A stretch of 64,000 nt of DNA from Methanomicrobia archaeon (GTDB lineage: Archaea > Halobacteriota > Bog-38 > Methanoflorentales > Methanoflorentaceae), in assembly GCA_015660915.1 (NCBI GenBank), contig JACTTZ010000008.1, forward strand, positions 1 through 64,000. Direction: 5' to 3'. Of the stretch, positions 7,927-20,871 are shown piece by piece. The notes beneath the pieces were generated by a model. That model made no database searches and was not told where the DNA came from. It saw only the letters and a program-made list of their open reading frames with translations. Position numbers and translations under genes: made by a program. The first letter of the stretch is position 1, and every line of letters starts with the position of its first letter.

Positions 7927-7952
7927 GCGATATTATCTTGTTATAATATCGC
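7927..7952. promoter_or_regulatory. Putative ModE-like operator, site 1 (GCGATAT-N12-ATATCGC)
   Basis: Perfect inverted repeat GCGATATTAT-CTTGTT-ATAATATCGC in the fwdB/fmdE divergent intergenic region. Confidence 0.6.
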
Positions 7953-7988: not shown

Positions 7989-8012
7989 CGTTATAATGAA
8001 TAAGGTATATCG
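7989..8012. promoter_or_regulatory. Putative ModE-like operator, site 2 (CGTTAT-N12-ATATCG)
   Basis: cgttat-aatgaataaggt-atatcg, 31 nt upstream of the fmdE-like ATG. Confidence 0.55.
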
Positions 8013-10882: not shown

Positions 10883-11330
10883 GTTCTGCTTTTACTTGCT
10901 TTAACAGGGCTTCTGCCATTATTTATTCCCTCTGGACAGCAGCGACTCAACCAGCTTTCGTTTGCACTAGTAAGAAGCTGCACTCATGCGTTCAATGAAA
11001 TCGGAAGAAGCCGTCAGCGAATCCACCGACACAAATATCTTTTCAAATTTGGCGGGAGTCAATTGGCGGGAGTCAATACGCGGACGCAAATAGAACAAGG
11101 AGCGAACGCAGACGTCTTCGCGTCAGCAAACCTCAAGCAAATGAATTCGTTGGGGGGTCAGGGCTTTTTAAATAACTCAAGCGTGGCTATTTCTTTAAAA
11201 GAACAAACTTGCCATCAATGTCCCTGCTGCACATCCTACAAACACGCCACCCTTTCAGACCTCTCGCGACCAGGCTTGAAACTTGTTATCGGGACAAAAG
11301 ACGTGCCGTGGGGGAATGCATTTCACTGAG
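10880..11330 (+). pseudogene. Decayed/truncated modA (molybdate-binding protein) relic
   Basis: THAFNEIG..., GGSQ, TQIEQGANADVFASANLKQMNSLGGQGFLNNSSVAIS...LSDLSRPGLKLVIGTKDVPWGN aligns with intact ModA TDAFNETA..., YAGSQ, TQIKQGATADVFASADQKNMKSVQDAGLMNNSSVAIF...LIDLAKPGVKLDICNSSVPCGN; C-terminal half absent. Confidence 0.85.
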
Positions 11331-11393: not shown

Positions 11394-12347
11394 CTAACTA
11401 CCAGCTGGTGGCTCGATTTGGTCGAGAATGGTTTTTTCGTCTTTGGCAGCACTTTTCTCCCTTAAGGCGAGCACTTTGACGGTGATGATAACCGCAAATG
11501 ATATTAGCACGAGAATGATTGCGATGTAAACCGCGGCATCCAAGTCACTGCCGAATGCACTATATATAGCGAGAGGCATCGTTTGGGTTACGCCCTGAAA
11601 ATTGCCTGCAAATAGGATAGTTGCGCCAAATTCTCCGAGAGCACGCGCCCACGTCATGAGTGCCCCAGAAACGAGGCCGTTCAGTGCGATCGGCGCTGTC
11701 ACACGGAAAAAGGTTCCTGCGCTTGATGCTCCTAGTGTGTGGGCCGCCCTTTCGTATTCGGGGTCGACGTCTTCGAAACTCGTTGTTGCTTGCCGGATAT
11801 AGAAAGGAGACGACACAAATATTTGCGCTAGTATGACGGCGGTTGTGGTAAAGGCGATGTTGATTCCCAGGATGTTGAAGTACTGACCAAGCAATCCTCG
11901 TCGGCCAAATGCCAATAAGAGCGCGATACCTGCCACCGCAGGAGGGAGGACAATTGGAAGATCGATTAGAGTTTCTATTATTCTCTTGCCGCGGTAGCTG
12001 TGGCGCGCGTTATGGTAAGCTACCGGGGTGCCAAATGCGATGACAATCAGCAGGGTCGTCAGCGTGGTCACCAAGCTTAGCTTAAGTGCCTCCACTACCA
12101 TTTCACTCGAAAAGGAGCTAAGAAAGCCAGAGGGAGTCCCGTACCAAAAGAGCGCTACGATAGGCAGGCCGACAAACGCTACGACTACCCCAAATATTAA
12201 AAAAATGATCAGGAACCGAATGGTTCTATTAAACGTCCAAGGCAAGTGGGCCTTAGCTGTGCGGGAAGATGAAAAAGTTTTGCGAGGCACTTTTAAAGAC
12301 TGCATACGTCGCTCTTGCGCGAGGATTTCAAGAATGATCAGCCGCAC
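11394..12347 (-). CDS. modB: Molybdate/tungstate ABC transporter permease
   Basis: Multiple TM segments; [47 protein letters not shown]-type loop. Confidence 0.9.
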   Translation of the reverse strand: MRLIILEILAQERRMQSLKVPRKTFSSSRTAKAHLPWTFNRTIRFLIIFLIFGVVVAFVGLPIVALFWYGTPSGFLSSFSSEMVVEALKLSLVTTLTTLLIVIAFGTPVAYHNARHSYRGKRIIETLIDLPIVLPPAVAGIALLLAFGRRGLLGQYFNILGINIAFTTTAVILAQIFVSSPFYIRQATTSFEDVDPEYERAAHTLGASSAGTFFRVTAPIALNGLVSGALMTWARALGEFGATILFAGNFQGVTQTMPLAIYSAFGSDLDAAVYIAIILVLISFAVIITVKVLALREKSAAKDEKTILDQIEPPAGS

Positions 12348-12701: not shown

Positions 12702-13598
12702 TCAAGTCGCAGAAGCGGTAGTTGAGCTCTGCGATGTCACAGCTGAGGTGGCAGCGGTGGTCGCGTTCTGTGCCGTCGGCGGGAGGATGAAACCGTACTT
12801 CAGCAAAATTGCCTGACCCGCAGGAGAGGTAACAAAGTTGATGAAACTCTGCGCCAGTTGGGCGTTCTGTGAACCGCTCAGTATTCCGATGGGGTATTGA
12901 GCAAGGACGTTTACACTGTCAGGGATCGTGATAACCTGCACCTTACTCTGGTATGCAGCTGGTACGTCGGATTTGTAGACCATGCCCGCGTCGGCCTGAC
13001 CGAGCGCGACCTTGGCTACAACATCGTTGACATTCGTTTCCTGTGACACAACGTTTGCCAGGACGCTGTTCGTGAAGCCGGAACCGTATGTCGAGTTATT
13101 AGATGCTTTTGCGAGCATTTGCAGCGTGTAATTCCCGCAGGGGACGGAACTGTTGCAGATATCGAGTTTTACTCCTGGCTTAGCGAGGTCGATCAGGCTG
13201 GTGATGTTTGCAGGGTTCCCTGTTGGGACGATGATGGCAAGTTTGTTCTCTGCGAAAATGGCAACGCTTGAGTTGTTCATCAACCCTGCGTCCTGGACAG
13301 ACTTCATGTTCTTTTGATCGGCAGACGCGAAAACATCCGCAGTGGCCCCTTGTTTGATTTGGGTTGCCAAAACTTGACTACCAGCATAATTAAGAGCGAC
13401 AGTGACCCCCGAGTTATTAGCTTCAAAGGCCTGAGCCGTCTCATTAAATGCGTCAGTTAGCGATGCTGCAGCAAAGACAGTGAGCTTCGTGCTTTGGGTG
13501 TTTTGTGTAGTCGTGCAGCCAGATGTGGTAACGACGAGCACGCTCAACAATGCGCAAAGCAAGATAGGCATAAACTTCTTCTTATCCATATGTATCAT
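12702..13598 (-). CDS. modA: Molybdate-binding lipoprotein
   Basis: Lipobox VVTTSGC; KLTVFAAASLTDAFNETAQAF...NYAGSQVLATQIKQGATADVFASAD. Confidence 0.93.
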   Translation of the reverse strand: MIHMDKKKFMPILLCALLSVLVVTTSGCTTTQNTQSTKLTVFAAASLTDAFNETAQAFEANNSGVTVALNYAGSQVLATQIKQGATADVFASADQKNMKSVQDAGLMNNSSVAIFAENKLAIIVPTGNPANITSLIDLAKPGVKLDICNSSVPCGNYTLQMLAKASNNSTYGSGFTNSVLANVVSQETNVNDVVAKVALGQADAGMVYKSDVPAAYQSKVQVITIPDSVNVLAQYPIGILSGSQNAQLAQSFINFVTSPAGQAILLKYGFILPPTAQNATTAATSAVTSQSSTTASAT

Positions 13599-13732
13599 CT
13601 TACGTATTCTTTCGAATTAGCTTTGAGTTGCGGGAAAGAGCTCTCACCCATCGTTCCAGCGGCGTTCAGAGCCGCAAGGATTATGTCTGCATCTTTCACT
13701 TGGCTGAAAACATAATGCTTAAGATACTTAAG

Positions 13733-13756
13733 CGTTATTACTCGTTAATAACAACG
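13733..13756. promoter_or_regulatory. Putative ModE-like operator, site 3 (CGTTAT-N12-ACAACG, one mismatch)
   Basis: agCGTTAT-tactcgttaata-ACAACG upstream of modA. Confidence 0.45.
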
Positions 13757-13908
13757 ATTCAAACTTCTCTCTTCCCTACGAGGACATCTGTTTTATCAGA
13801 TGGTATTTCATTATATGCCCGCCACTTCTCAAAAACTGTTGGGAGATAAGGTATGGGTGCTGTGATCACACCCAAAACCTCAGGAGCAATATATCTTCCG
13901 TAATATAA

Positions 13909-13938
13909 AAGCGTTATGACTGATAAATAATAACGCTT
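13909..13938. promoter_or_regulatory. Putative ModE-like operator, site 4 (AAGCGTTAT-N12-ATAACGCTT)
   Basis: Perfect 9-bp arms with 12-bp spacer, directly preceded by TATA-like aatataaaag on the + strand. Confidence 0.65.
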
Positions 13939-14171
13939 AAGTATAGTTACTCCTATCCTATTCACGTAGCAACGTCAACAGAGCAGTTGCTCAGATCACC
14001 AGCTTAGCGACGTTGAACCAATCGTGGCTCAACGCTGTGAAGCTCTTGTGGCCACACGAGGAACTAATTCCCTCCAAAAAAATGCTGACCGTGAATGAAG
14101 AAGGGCTTTGAACACGAAAACGCTTGTAATGGTTTTTCTTGCGAGCTTAAACGTGCTCATCATCATCTCGC

Positions 14172-14290
14172 GTGGCCGCACCATCTTGTAAACGCACGCA
14201 CTTACGGTTTAAGCTGGCGCTAGTGATCGTTGTTCTATCTGGTTTGACGATGATTGTGACATTCACGGCTAGCGGATGTAGCGAGCGGCA
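14172..14290 (+). pseudogene. Possible lipoprotein signal-peptide remnant
   Basis: FKLALVIVVLSGLTMIVTFTASGC lipobox-like sequence with no credible mature protein after it; lies downstream of the site-4 promoter. Confidence 0.35.
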
Positions 14291-14600
14291 TGTTCCGGGC
14301 TGCTGGCTTCGAACGCTTGCTTCCGTTTGTCGCTTATGGCACCACCTCGCTCTCCTTTGACGAAGCGAAGTGCAGTTACAGCGTAATCGCGAAATGCTGC
14401 TGTCGTTATAACTTCGGCATCGGGAGCTCCAAAAGGTGGTTTTCCGACAGAGCTAGGTGGAGGATCTGGCGATTCAAGGAACGCACCGAGTGATTCTATG
14501 AGGGTTTCACTTGTTGCTTTCGTTTCGAGTCGGATCTTGCATGCCGCCAACGAGCGACCTTTTTTGTTGTTTGTGTGACTAGAGTGCGCGTGCTCCTGCC

Positions 14601-15689
14601 TTAGCGTGACATAGTCTTGCGACTCTGCTGTCTTTTGCTGATCACGTTTACCCCCGTTGCCTTGAAAGCAACGCTGACTTCACTGCCCATATCGAGTCCG
14701 AGCGTTTCCGTGGAGATGTTTGTGACATATGCGGCAAGTATAAAACCACAGTCAATAATCACCTTATTGATAGGTCCGAGGTAGAGTATCTGCTTGACCG
14801 TTCCATTGAAAGTGTTCCGTGCGCTGCTGACCGCCTGTTCGAGCATTACGGTGATGTTTTCTGGTCTGATTCCTAGGAGGACCCTTTCGCCTCGTTCATT
14901 GTTTGCGACGGCTTCAATAGTGGCATTGCCAATGTCAGCGGTAATAATTCCATCATTCTGAGCAACAACGGCACCTTCAAAGAGATTCTCCATCCCGACA
15001 AACGAGGCAACCCGTGCATCTTCCGGTTTGTCAAAGATTTGATGAACCGAGCCGGTTTGTATGAGCCGGCCGCCACACATGACGCCGAGGCGATCTGCCA
15101 GCAACCGGGCTTCAGTCTGGTCATGGGTCACAAACAAGGCCGTGATCTCAAACTGGTCAATCACGTCTCGCAGTTCTTCGCGTACCGAATCTCGTGACCG
15201 AGCGTCGAGAGCGCTTAATGGTTCATCGAGAAGGAGAACGTTCGGCTCAAGAATCAAGGATCGAGCGAGAGCCACTCGTTGCTGTTCTCCGCCGCTCAGC
15301 GTGGTAGGGGTCCGGTCTTTGAGCTTAGCAATCCCAACCAGTTCCATAATTTCCTCAATTCTTCGATCGTGATCGGGCAGCTTCGTATACCTCAGACCGA
15401 ATTTAATGTTCTTGTGCACGCTCATGTTCGGGAACAGGGCATAGTTTTGGAACATGTAACCGATATGCCGCCTCTCCGTCGGCAAAAAAGTTATGTCTGC
15501 GCCGTCGAAGAGCACCCGCCCTTGTCGCGGATATACGAATCCCGCAATGAGATCGAGCAAGACCGTTTTTCCTGCACCACTAGGGCCTAAGATGACAAAG
15601 AACTCGCCGCTAGCCACGTTGAGGCTAATGTCACGCAGCTTGAAATCGCCTAAGGTTGCGTGTGCACCTTCTACTGAAACTGTAGTCAT
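14601..15689 (-). CDS. Molybdate/tungstate ABC transporter ATP-binding protein (ModC/WtpC-type with TOBE domain)
   Basis: Walker A GPSGAGKT; signature LSGGEQQRVALARS; Walker B LLLDEPLSALD; C-terminal TOBE. Confidence 0.92.
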   Translation of the reverse strand: MTTVSVEGAHATLGDFKLRDISLNVASGEFFVILGPSGAGKTVLLDLIAGFVYPRQGRVLFDGADITFLPTERRHIGYMFQNYALFPNMSVHKNIKFGLRYTKLPDHDRRIEEIMELVGIAKLKDRTPTTLSGGEQQRVALARSLILEPNVLLLDEPLSALDARSRDSVREELRDVIDQFEITALFVTHDQTEARLLADRLGVMCGGRLIQTGSVHQIFDKPEDARVASFVGMENLFEGAVVAQNDGIITADIGNATIEAVANNERGERVLLGIRPENITVMLEQAVSSARNTFNGTVKQILYLGPINKVIIDCGFILAAYVTNISTETLGLDMGSEVSVAFKATGVNVISKRQQSRKTMSR

Positions 15690-15980
15690 CTTTCTTTTTT
15701 CCTTCTGAGGGTAACAAGCCTCAGCACTATAAATACCGTTAGCGTTACCAGAATCAGGAGTGCTGCAATGGCTGAACTAGCTCTCAGTCCAAATTGAAGG
15801 TATACATCTGAAATCAATATCGGCGCCGTTCTAGGAAAATATGTAATGATATACACCTCGCCAAACTCACTTAGCGATCGTGCCTATATCAAGAGAATAC
15901 CGACCACGATACTGCGAAAAGCGAGGGGTAGGCTAATGCGGCTAAAGACTTCGAAACGGGAAGCGCCAAGGGTTCTTCCT
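15689..15980 (-). pseudogene. Relic of Wtp/ModB-type permease C-terminus
   Basis: Frameshifted reading gives ISLPLAFRSIVVGILL / SLSEFGEVYIITYFPRTAPILISDVYLQFGLRASSAIAALLILVTLTVFIVLRLVTLRRKK immediately upstream of the ATPase gene. Confidence 0.8.
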
Positions 15981-15991
15981 GCAAGTTAGTT

Positions 15992-16024
15992 AAAAAAAGG
16001 GTAAGAGCAAAAATACTCTTACCC
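15992..16024 (-). terminator. Intrinsic-type terminator downstream of tupA
   Basis: Minus strand GGGTAAGAG-TATTTTTG-CTCTTACCC followed by TTTTTTT; perfect 9-bp stem. Confidence 0.7.
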
Positions 16025-16141
16025 CCGAATCTGCTGTCTGGCGTTGGAGGTGAATCTAACGCCCTAAGATAAGTCAATTATTTTCTCTCGCACCTCCGTC
16101 TTGGCTAGATGTACTCTATTTTCAGTGCGGTCTCGACTGTC

Positions 16142-17263
16142 TTAAGTGGCCGCCTTAGTCGTCGTCGCGCTCACAACGGCGGGCGTTGCGGCCATCCCAG
16201 TCATCGTCGCATTTGCTGTGGCGGTCGATGTGGCAGTCATCAGCGTGGGCGGCACGAGATCAGTCGCAAGGCCTGTGCAGGTGCAGTTAAACTTGCTGCA
16301 ATTTCCGTTCATCGGGTAAAACAGAGGCTGTCCGTACTGTTGTACACCGTATGCGCCGATCAATTGCTGGGTCGAATTGGAGATCATGAAGTTCACGAAG
16401 TTGTTGGCCAATTGGATCTCGTCCGTAGTGAACTTCGTGTTGTATACGGTGATAGCGCTGTACACATTCAGCATGGCGCTGTCATTCGTGACCCCCAGCG
16501 GAACGAGTGTAAGGTTACCCTTATAGGCGAGGTAAGTCCCCAGATCAGTAAGGGTATACGCTTGTTTCTGATTGGCAACCTGCAGCGTCGCGCCCATTCC
16601 TTGTCCAGTCTCGCTATACCAGGCCCCGGATCCCTCGATTTGTGTAGTGTAGTTATATCCAGCCGACGCCCAGATACCCTGCTCCTTTACGTGGGTGCCC
16701 GATTGGTCACCGCGGGAAACAAACGCCACCCCCGTGGTGTTATTCGTGCCGAGTTGGTAGATCTTCTGGAACGCCGCCACCGCGCCCGTCCCATTGATCG
16801 CGGCCGGATCGCTCGGCGGACCGACGATAACGAAGTAGTTGTAGGCAAAGCAACGGCGGTTCATCCCCGTACCGTTAGCAACGAAAGCCTTCTCTGCGGC
16901 CGGCGAATGGACGGCCAAAACACCGCAATCGCCGCGGCTTGCGACCTGTAACGCCGCACCGCTTCCCTGTGAGGTGATCAGCAGTGTACAGTTGTATTGC
17001 TGTTCGAAATAAGGCTTGAGGTAGTCCAGAAGCCCGGTGTCATATAGACTGGTGGTGGTTGCCAGCGTTAGTTGCGGCTTGGCACTTGTGGTAGAGGTGG
17101 TGCAGCCTGAAGCTGCCACCGCCATAGTGGTGACTAAAATGCACACTATTAGCATCTTACCTAATGGTTTCATTTTTCCCTCCATAGCTCGCAATCGATA
17201 TGTTGCGCAGGAAATATCATTCTCATGCTTAATGAGTTTTGCTCTTTCGAAAGCACTTGCCAA
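16142..17263 (-). CDS. tupA: Tungstate-binding protein TupA (lipoprotein; probable start at 17173)
   Basis: AASGCTTST lipobox; LATTTSLYDTGLLDYLKPYF, GDCGVLAVHSPAAEKAFV, VSRGDQSGTHVKEQGIW. Confidence 0.9.
   Translation of the reverse strand: MASAFERAKLIKHENDISCATYRLRAMEGKMKPLGKMLIVCILVTTMAVAASGCTTSTTSAKPQLTLATTTSLYDTGLLDYLKPYFEQQYNCTLLITSQGSGAALQVASRGDCGVLAVHSPAAEKAFVANGTGMNRRCFAYNYFVIVGPPSDPAAINGTGAVAAFQKIYQLGTNNTTGVAFVSRGDQSGTHVKEQGIWASAGYNYTTQIEGSGAWYSETGQGMGATLQVANQKQAYTLTDLGTYLAYKGNLTLVPLGVTNDSAMLNVYSAITVYNTKFTTDEIQLANNFVNFMISNSTQQLIGAYGVQQYGQPLFYPMNGNCSKFNCTCTGLATDLVPPTLMTATSTATANATMTGMAATPAVVSATTTKAAT
17196..17219. promoter_or_regulatory. Putative ModE-like operator, site 5 (CGATAT-N12-ATATCA, one mismatch)
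   Basis: cgatat-gttgcgcaggaa-atatca, 23 nt upstream of the tupA ATG. Confidence 0.5.
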
Positions 17264-17669
17264 AAAGCCTAATTTTTTGTTTTATAACTGCCTGTTAACT
17301 GATTTCAAGAAAGGACAATGGAGACGTTTCTAACCAGAATTTGTTTCCCATTTTGCTCGCTAATTGCGTCAATTCGTGCTTTCTAATATATCCGCTTAGT
17401 CGCATTAGTGATCCTTAAGTAATATCGACATCTGAGGAACTGAGGCTCACTTTGATTATAATAAGCGAAGTTGTCTGCAGTTCTCAGCAGATGCACAGAC
17501 GGTCGCGTGAGTCGTTATATCGTTCGTCCATCTGCAAAACCAAAATGACAGCTCACTCCGACGTTCGTATAAAACTCAAAAAGAGTAGCACAAGAAATCG
17601 TTACGTATGTTAATATGCGTTAGTAAGACGCGCTCTTACAAAACCCTTCGGAAAAGTACATGCGCCAGA

Positions 17670-17956
17670 AAGGAGTAGATCTCGCTGCTTAGCTCAATGC
17701 GGCGAAATAGACTACGCGTGGAACTATGAATCTGTGGCTTGCAGAACAATTTCAAGTACGTCGACCTGTCAGATCAGATCGACTTTTCCAACAAACCTAC
17801 GCAGACTTGTACAAGACTGTAAACGTCGCCTCCGCTGGCAAGCAGGTGACCGGATTGTTCATTGAGTTGGCATCACTATACCAAACAACGCCAAAAACCC
17901 AGAGATTGCGATCACGTTTGTCGAGTTTATATTAGGATCTCAAAGCGTTTTGAAAT
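17670..17956 (+). pseudogene. wtpA: wtpA (tungstate/molybdate-binding protein) C-terminal relic
   Basis: Across several frames: VDLAA*LN / GEIDYAWNYESVA / FKYVDLSDQIDFSNKP / YADLYKTVNVASAGKQVTG / GITIPNNAKNPEIAITFVEFILGSQSVLK, which is the WtpA C-terminal pattern. Confidence 0.85.
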
Positions 17957-18002
17957 AATTCTCATCTGAAAGATGGGTGAAAAAAAGAGGGAATTAAACG
18001 AA

Positions 18003-19112
18003 TCAATCCGTGTCTGTCCGTTCCACCACGTGGATGGCACTGGCCTTGAAGGTGAGCTCGGTCTCCTTTCCCAGCGCAAGACCGAGCTCCTCGAATGACC
18101 GTTGGGTGATGACCGCGGTCAGTTTCACTCCGGCATCGACCTTCAGGCGCACCATCGGCCCCATAGGAACGACCTCGATGATCCGCCCGGTGAACTTGTT
18201 ACGGGCACTGCTCCGGATGCTGTCTTTTTCGTAGAAGGTAATATCCTCCGGTCGCATGTAGATGGTGACCGGCGTGCCGGGGGAGACGCCTGAGCCGGCG
18301 GCGATCCGGACGCCGTTTACATCAATGGCCGCAAGCCCGGCTTCATTTTCGGTGACGACACCGTCTAAGATATCCGCGACTCCGACCATGTGGGCAACCG
18401 CCCGGTTCATCGGCTGATAAAAGATCTGTTTTGAGGTACCGATCTGGCCTATTCGCCCGTCGATGACTACGGCGATGCGGTCGGCCAGCCTCTGTCCCTG
18501 TACCATATCATGGGTGGACAGGATAATCGTGATACCGAACCGTTTCTTGAGGTCCCCGATCATGCCCTCGATCTTCTCAGTCGCTACCGGATCGAGGTTG
18601 GCGGTCGGTTCATCGAGAAGGAGGACATCAGGCTTGGTGGTGATGGCCCGGGCGATGGCCACCCGCTGCATCTCACCTCCAGAAAGGGTGATGGCCTTCC
18701 TCTCTTCATACCCCTCCAGCCCGACCAGCTCCAGTGATTCCGAGACACGCCTGGAAATCTCATCAGCATTCACGTTCCTGAATTGGAGCCCGATGGCGAT
18801 ATTGGCGTACACCGACCCACGGAGCGGAGAAGGTTTCTGGAAGACCATGCTCATCTTCCGCCGCACTTGGATCTTTGCTCGGTCACGGAGCTTGGTAACA
18901 TTGGTCCCGTCAATCAGGATCTTGCCCGATGTCGGTCGCTCCAGCATGTCGATGAGGCGCAGGAGCGTAGTCTTACCGGAGCCGCTCGGTCCGATAAAGG
19001 TGAAGATCTCACCTTTAATGATAGAGAACGACACATCTTTCAGGACATCTTTCTTCCCGAAGTTCATAACCACGTGGTCGAACTCGATCACTATATCAAC
19101 GCTCCTGCACAA
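18003..19112 (-). CDS. tupC: Tungstate ABC transporter ATP-binding protein with C-terminal TOBE
   Basis: GPSGSGKTTLLRLIDMLERPTSG, LSGGEMQRVAIARA, LLLDEPTANLDP; overlaps tupB. Confidence 0.9.
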   Translation of the reverse strand: MCRSVDIVIEFDHVVMNFGKKDVLKDVSFSIIKGEIFTFIGPSGSGKTTLLRLIDMLERPTSGKILIDGTNVTKLRDRAKIQVRRKMSMVFQKPSPLRGSVYANIAIGLQFRNVNADEISRRVSESLELVGLEGYEERKAITLSGGEMQRVAIARAITTKPDVLLLDEPTANLDPVATEKIEGMIGDLKKRFGITIILSTHDMVQGQRLADRIAVVIDGRIGQIGTSKQIFYQPMNRAVAHMVGVADILDGVVTENEAGLAAIDVNGVRIAAGSGVSPGTPVTIYMRPEDITFYEKDSIRSSARNKFTGRIIEVVPMGPMVRLKVDAGVKLTAVITQRSFEELGLALGKETELTFKASAIHVVERTDTD

Positions 19113-19782
19113 GGAAGAGGAGTGCAGTAACGATCAAAGCTATAAGCAGGAGGATAATACCCAGCGCGATGGCGAGCGGGAGGTCGCCAATCGAGGTTTC
19201 AAGCGCAATTGCAGTAGTCAGTACCCGTGTATAACCTTTGATATTCCCACCGATTATCATTGCCGCTCCGACTTCTGAGATCGCCCTGCCGAACCCCAGG
19301 ATGACGCCACCGAGAATGGCGAAACGGGCTTCTTTGACAATAGTGATAACCGTCTGAAGCTGGGTTGCCCCGAGGGAAATCACAGTATCCTGTTTGGTCT
19401 GGCTCACTCCGGATAGGGCGATCAGGGTCATCCCGATCATGAGCGGGACGATAAGAACTGTTTGCCCGATTATCATGCCGGTAGGAGTGAAGAGAAGTTG
19501 TAAAAATCCGAACGGGCCCGAGCGGGAGAGCAGGAGCCAGACGAGGAGTCCGACGAGCACCGTGGGGAGGGCATAAAGGGCCTGGATGATGGTGATCAGA
19601 CCCCTCTTTCCACCGAACTGCTTGAAATGGATGAATCCTCCGATAGGAATGGCGATCAGGGATGCCACCAAGGTTGCCGAGAGCGAGATGTAAAGGGACC
19701 GGGCAGTTATATCGAGAACCTCTGGGTTCAGGGAGACGATCAGCTGAATCGCCTGGCGTATACCTTCAACAATTTCATTCAT
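19096..19782 (-). CDS. tupB: Tungstate ABC transporter permease
   Basis: 228 aa, hydrophobic; ALPTVLVGLLVWLLLSRSGPFG...GRAISEVGAAMIIGGNIKGYTRVLTTAIALETSIGDLPLAIALG. Confidence 0.92.
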   Translation of the reverse strand: MNEIVEGIRQAIQLIVSLNPEVLDITARSLYISLSATLVASLIAIPIGGFIHFKQFGGKRGLITIIQALYALPTVLVGLLVWLLLSRSGPFGFLQLLFTPTGMIIGQTVLIVPLMIGMTLIALSGVSQTKQDTVISLGATQLQTVITIVKEARFAILGGVILGFGRAISEVGAAMIIGGNIKGYTRVLTTAIALETSIGDLPLAIALGIILLLIALIVTALLFLVQER

Positions 19783-20142
19783 CGATGAACTCCTCCCCCC
19801 CGCAGACAGCAGGCTTTTACGAAACGATGATCGATACTATTCAACAGTAGTGACAGATTTCTTGAGATAATAAATGATGTCCGCTAAACTTGTTGGTATG
19901 CCAGTTGATTATCAGTCCTGCGCCACCCTGCCGATCATCTCGGTATACAGGACGGTACCGAGGATTGCCCGCCCTCGGTCGGGTACCGGTCCTTCATCAG
20001 GGCGCCACGAAGGGAGCCCGACAAACATCACCCCGATCACTGATCTGATCTTAGGACGGACTGAAGATCGCGCTCGGGGATGTAAATGCCACCGCAGTCG
20101 TGAAGGCGCCACCGCGACACTTCTCGAACGGCTCACTGCCCC

Positions 20143-20380
20143 TCCATAGCTCGCAAGAGCGATATGTTACGCACGGAATATCGTTTTCGTACTTAATTAG
20201 TTTTGCTTACGGGTTTCACCACTTAATTGCGTGTTATTCTACTAAGTAAGTAGATTTCCTAACGGACAATGAGGGCAAGCCCGTAGCGAGAGATCCTGCC
20301 TTTTATGCTCGATAATTGCGTTTGTTTGCTAAATCTATTAAAATTGTTGGAAGCAGTTAAGACTAGCACGTTATATCGCT
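20143..20380. repeat. Diverged duplicate of the tupA leader/promoter region (other copy about 17171-17400)
   Basis: cctccatagctcgcaagagcgatatgttacgcacggaatatcgttttcgtacttaattagttttgct vs cctccatagctcgcaatcgatatgttgcgcaggaaatatcattctcatgcttaatgagttttgct; weaker similarity continues (ggacaatg..., atgctcg.taattgcgt). Confidence 0.8.
20160..20183. promoter_or_regulatory. Putative ModE-like operator, site 6 (CGATAT-N12-ATATCG)
   Basis: cgatat-gttacgcacgga-atatcg, perfect arms, in the duplicated leader. Confidence 0.55.
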
Positions 20381-20607
20381 ATGCCAGCACAACGTAAAAC
20401 CTTGAGACATCTTACGAGTTTGTTAAAAGCCATCAGGAGTCTTCAGGAGGTCTGTTGATCTTTGTCGGGCGAAAATCCGTAAGGCCGAGTCGACGCAACT
20501 CACCCTAACCAACTGATCTACATTTAAAAAAAGCGTATGACACCTAAAAGCGGCCGGCCTGCTTCCAGTGTTTAAAAAGCCTCATTACGTAGATAGAGCT
20601 TTAGACT

Positions 20608-20871
20608 TTAAGAAATCGTTTCGAGTTTTGTCTGTCTTTCATCCTCGGCTTTTTTAAGCGTATCAACATCTATGAAATACTCTAACGCTTCTGGGCATTG
20701 ACTCGCAAGTCCCTCGAAGAATCGGCGTACGACGGCGCTGGTAGCCAATTCAAGAGTCTCGCTGTAAGCAGCTACAAGTACAGGCGGCAACTTCTTCGTA
20801 CGCTCCATAATCTGCTTGATAGCAGCGACTGCGCGGTCCACTTCTCCCATCGTACTGAAGCTGTCTGCCAT
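20608..20871 (-). CDS. Small hypothetical protein
   Basis: 87 aa helical ORF. Confidence 0.5.
   Translation of the reverse strand: MADSFSTMGEVDRAVAAIKQIMERTKKLPPVLVAAYSETLELATSAVVRRFFEGLASQCPEALEYFIDVDTLKKAEDERQTKLETIS

Follow-up and report, generated by a model that had tools for sequence, protein, structure and literature searches.

A wtpA remnant and an orphan wtpC among mod and tup genes of a probable Methanoflorens genome

The window, i.e., the whole stretch of DNA analysed here, spans positions 1-64000 of a contig of 88 kb, which belongs to an archaeal draft genome of 2.04 Mb (G000). GTDB genus Bog-38 corresponds to Methanoflorens stordalenmirensis, a hydrogenotrophic methanogen from thawing permafrost (PMC10805028). 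G000 most likely belongs to this genus. The locus carries intact genes of the mod and tup types together with pieces of WtpABC, the most common Mo/W transporter of archaea (PMC6147048). Its features are as follows:

11394-12347, minus strand: modB-type permease, intact (TIGR01581 257 bits, TIGR02141 221 bits, both over cut-off)
12702-13598, minus strand: modA, molybdate-binding protein, intact (TIGR01256 171 bits, cut-off 62.5)
14601-15689, minus strand: wtpC, intact WtpC-type ATPase, ABC_tran and TOBE (NF040840, Pfam, dN/dS)
15698-15982, minus strand: wtpB relic, WtpB residues 176-270 of 270 (NF040839, profile, NCBIfam)
16142-17185, minus strand: TupA-type substrate-binding protein, intact, longest ORF to 17263 (NF041772 175 bits, cut-off 400; Pfam PBP_like_2)
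17603-17638, plus strand: weak 5' extension of the wtpA relic, profile from about residue 194 (milder gap/stop penalties only)
17639-17937, plus strand: wtpA relic, profile residues 205-306 of 343 (frameshift-aware alignment, shuffles, NCBIfam)
17938-17956, plus strand: degraded end of the same relic, overlapping the tupC-flank junction (blastn against contig C144 of the congeneric genome G003; alignment end)
18003-19112, minus strand: tupC-like ATPase of the tup cluster, intact (model matches, Pfam, dN/dS)
19096-19782, minus strand: TupB-type permease, intact (NF038017 246 bits, NF041773 154 bits)

The models for WtpABC were TIGR03730 and NF003196 (WtpA), NF040839 (WtpB), and NF040840 (WtpC). 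The TupA and TupB scores both lie under their curated cut-offs. Two further gene remnants were seen on the plus strand. Positions 10886-11317 hold a second relic, a copy of modA with several frame changes that scores 215 against the intact ModA. Positions 14269-14408 encode a C-terminal piece of 47 residues from a protein that resembles, as judged by eye, an NAD(P)H oxidoreductase; the congeneric loci L027 (7275-7901) and L029 encode this protein intact. Two other genomes (G030 and G039) each contain a single frame of about 600 residues that is WtpA-like at the N-terminus and TupA-like at the C-terminus, i.e., a fused tungstate-binding pair, the TupA-like half of which is 40% identical to the TupA of the window. 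Frames of 623-887 aa at WtpA matches in other genomes may be similar fusions.

A preliminary description of this DNA had recognized a WtpA C-terminus that can be read only by switching frames several times. We took 12 intact WtpA proteins encoded in related genomes, built a WtpA profile of 343 columns, and aligned it with the DNA using a custom-written, frameshift-aware local DNA-versus-profile aligner. The match at 17639-17937 reached a score of 211 half-bits, whereas 1000 dinucleotide shuffles of the relic DNA averaged 28.6 (sd 3.9) and peaked at 46.6, and over the rest of the 64-kb window the profile scored no higher than about 47, except at the homologue ModA (132). The chosen alignment path contains no stops and four frame changes, each net -1, near 17689, 17739, 17792, and 17866; the peptides first quoted for the relic do follow one another in the order given, in successive plus-strand frames. 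Of 101 aligned residues, 50 (50%) are identical to the WtpA consensus. Searched against NCBIfam, the read-through peptide matched only two WtpA models (E 1.3e-27 and 1.8e-26) and no ModA model; it also finds matches in 182 of 394 genomes of the phylum, with 42-51% identity to the best intact WtpA proteins. Plain tblastn with intact WtpA queries likewise recovered the relic, with E values down to 1e-9.

What survives is the C-terminal part of WtpA without its very end, so that the earlier assignment to the C-terminus holds except for the last 25-37 residues or so, which are absent. Profile alignment found no trace of WtpA residues 1-193 anywhere in the 64-kb window, and the relic lacks a continuous frame of about 340 residues with a start and a signal peptide. 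We therefore regard 17639-17937 (plus strand), with high confidence, as the dead remnant of a wtpA gene that once belonged to a wtpABC importer operon. It is an ordinary pseudogene, and nothing useful is made from it.

The two partners that had been named for this relic, a permease relic and an ATPase on the opposite strand, proved to be real. The wtpB relic represents the C-terminal third of WtpB, contains one internal TAG and no frameshift, gives a profile alignment score of 246.6, and lies directly upstream of the intact wtpC on the same (minus) strand. The wtpC product scored 396.8 bits with NF040840, the best of all models despite a curated cut-off of 440, compared with 225 for ModC; both this best match and the adjoining wtpB relic identify it as WtpC. 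Its closest named relatives come from the Euryarchaeota MAGs bog_38, fen_3, and fen_29 and from a SPRUCE peat MAG. Since the wtpA relic is read on the plus strand, the Wtp genes of the window do not share one strand as expected of a wtpABC operon.

Among six congeneric genomes, four retain differing wtpB scraps immediately upstream of wtpC. In the loci L027-L029 (G004, G002, and G001), the final 21-24 or so wtpB codons remain before an intact wtpC, and this locus lacks the stretch corresponding to window positions 15742 to about 20608, in which tupA, the wtpA relic, and tupBC lie; these three genomes keep modAB and the orphan wtpC. In G003, a piece resembling WtpB residues 80-108 lies between tupA and wtpC, but this match is weak (57 versus a whole-window background of up to about 61). 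A membrane protein which we take to resemble MOT1-type molybdate/sulfate transporters is split over two frames beside the tupA of G003 (L026, 177-1273). No WtpA scored over the cut-off in G000 or in the six congeners, and no wtpA relic was found in the congeners by read-through search or, in L025-L029, by profile, which matched only ModA there. Other stages of the same wtpAB decay are seen in the congeners.

It had also been proposed that TupA replaced WtpA, an idea that finds only partial support. In G000, tupA does stand beside the relic. However, TupA was found only in G000 and G003 among the own genome and its congeners, and G001, G002, and G004 (80-88% complete) yielded neither TupA nor WtpA. 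The loss of WtpAB in these three sister species is therefore independent of any gain of TupA, and replacement by TupA cannot be the general cause of WtpA loss.

In relatives with an intact wtpA, a motif scan placed wtpB and wtpC on the wtpA strand wherever they were seen nearby. Using blastn, we detected synteny with G003 on the tupC side starting at 17948, which coincides with the 3' end of the wtpA relic at about 17940. In G003 the same tupC flank adjoins, in reversed orientation, the sequence found at window position 20315, and tupBC are oriented relative to the HEAT-repeat gene in the reverse of the window's arrangement. The flank orientation and the boundary at 17948 together indicate that the window and G003 differ by one inversion or more and that a rearrangement boundary falls at the relic. 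An inversion, as first suggested from the strand disagreement, is thus likely and the best reading; we infer the event itself as well as its order relative to the gain of the tup genes. An out-of-frame peptide at 19880-20136 (minus strand) recalls, by eye, the start of a class III adenylate cyclase. We rejected the idea that the inversion had split wtpA and left its N-terminus on the minus strand near 19880-20140, after a tupA-like leader, because the WtpA profile matches nothing there.

Could assembly or read errors account for the broken frames, with the gene still whole in the living organism? All four changes are net -1 and the protein sequence between them is well conserved, as base skipping would yield. 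Mending the frames, however, still leaves about 200 N-terminal residues and the C-terminus missing, with no N-terminus elsewhere in the window, so that read correction could not restore the gene; furthermore, the adjacent tupA, tupB, tupC, wtpC, and modA are all intact, and wtpB is separately truncated and carries a stop. We consider sequencing error very unlikely. The conserved amino acids between the shifts could also be taken to mean that the fragment is expressed as a short protein through programmed frameshifting, but this would demand four shifts in 300 bases from a sequence that lacks a start, a signal peptide, and the N-terminal lobe, is truncated at the C-terminus, and has no conserved copy in congeners, which leaves it practically negligible. 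An origin from ModA or another substrate-binding protein is scarcely more credible: ModA is a homologue of WtpA, and positions 10886-11317 nearby hold a modA-like relic, but the read-through peptide matches WtpA models only and retains its similarity to intact WtpA of the phylum.

A more serious alternative is that exchange between congeners brought in the tup block and, along with it, an already broken wtpA fragment, instead of the fragment being left by decay of a resident operon. Between G000 and G003, dS reaches 2.4 for wtpC (near or beyond saturation and hence of qualitative use only) and 0.67 for the neighbouring HEAT gene but is lower, at 0.36-0.40, for tupA and tupC, so the tup block probably moved. 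The wtpC of G000 is closer to those of L027-L029 (dS 0.42-0.60) than to that of G003. This uneven divergence shows the locus to be a mosaic, to which exchange between congeners probably contributed, and makes any order of inversion, tup gain, and decay tentative. Nevertheless, no trace of wtpA lies next to the tup genes of G003, and several species carry wtpB scraps adjoining wtpC, as expected if wtpABC was a resident operon. Arrival of a pre-broken wtpA fragment is therefore unlikely in our view, and we retain decay of the resident operon as the preferred reading.

Under resident decay, an ancestral wtpABC operon encoding a tungstate/molybdate ABC importer was dismantled within the genus. A rearrangement, in the simplest case a single inversion that ended within wtpB, would have parted wtpA, now on the plus strand, from wtpC and the 3' portion of wtpB, both of which stayed on the minus strand. 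The same inversion would have set tupA beside wtpB; the predicted order, wtpC (minus), 3' part of wtpB (minus), tupA (minus), wtpA (plus), is the one observed. Deletions and frame changes would afterwards have worn down wtpA and wtpB. In this scheme wtpC was retained, most likely to energise ModAB, as modA and modB lie a few kb away and ModC has no family-level match, and TupABC would supply extra tungstate uptake in those species that carry tup genes.

The wtpC gene is under purifying selection: dN/dS is 0.12-0.16 between G000 and L027-L029 and up to 0.23 within L027-L029. These values indicate that the ATPase does work for some system. In G001, G002, and G004, wtpC is the sole ATPase matching ModC at E <= 1e-40 and lies on one contig with modB, 6-7 kb apart. 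No ATPase of the genus passed the ModC cut-off, the best ModC-like protein being the wtpC orthologue. In the window, wtpC and modA do not form one operon and are separated by about 1 kb that includes relic DNA. From this proximity and the missing ModC we tentatively suggest that WtpC outlived WtpA and WtpB and may now power ModAB, as a hybrid ModAB-WtpC transporter across the genus; the case for and against is nearly balanced. No modAB was seen in G003 (77% complete), which has wtpC and tupABC, and the suggested pairing thus does not extend to this genome. Within the part of the literature that was covered, no earlier account of a WtpC/ModAB hybrid or of a wtp pseudogene in a methanogen was found.

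The mod and tup genes may also share regulation. The palindrome CGWTAT-N12-ATAWCG occurs at seven places in the 2-Mb genome (reversed control, 0), and a further ModE-type operator with one mismatch lies upstream of tupA:

7928-7951, 7989-8012, 13912-13935, and 20160-20183: palindrome sites in the window (genome scan)
C16:44113, C16:44329, and C19:222627: palindrome sites in the rest of the genome (genome scan)
17196-17219: ModE-type operator preceding tupA, with one mismatch

Six of the palindrome sites lie by Mo/W genes, namely the fwd/fmd operon and FmdE, modA, the tup cluster, and, as judged by eye, a probable formate dehydrogenase gene. The palindrome agrees with the ModE consensus of E. 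coli, CGNTATATA-N6-TATATANCG (PMC545781). ModE-like DNA-binding genes are present on contig C19 of the genome, and we regard the sites as a candidate ModE regulon. A leader of about 66 bases, comprising the ModE-type site and the ribosome-binding region, is found at 17178-17243 (tupA) and again at 20140-20207 (84%, same orientation); the second copy lies upstream of tupB and is followed by no tupA-like gene. An Rfam search over 13500-20700 returned nothing, with no known riboswitch before the tup or wtp genes.

The relic can be read as a scar showing that the usual archaeal importer was given up by a major group of permafrost-peat methanogens that require Mo or W for their formylmethanofuran and formate dehydrogenases; this group now presumably relies on ModAB, plus TupABC in some species. 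The intact orphan wtpC offers a testable case of the motor of one ABC transporter being reused by another and, if the hybrid is true, the wtpA and wtpB scraps would be the fossil record of the switch. For annotation, a lone wtpC is no evidence for a WtpABC transporter.

Compared with known systems, the three pieces of the window match WtpA, WtpB, and WtpC best, but they differ from a WtpABC transporter in that only wtpC is intact whereas wtpA and wtpB survive as fragments, one on each strand. The locus resembles TupABC in that tupA, tupB, and an ATPase adjoin the relic, but the relic shows no match to TupA. With respect to ModABC, modA and modB of the window pass their cut-offs, whereas the genus has no ATPase over the ModC cut-off. 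Methanimicrococcus has lost wtpAB, tupAB, and modABC, i.e., all importers, together with its Mo/W enzymes (PMC9723798). The present case shares with it the loss of a Mo/W importer in a methanogen but differs in that here the Fwd/Fmd enzymes and two other importers remain.
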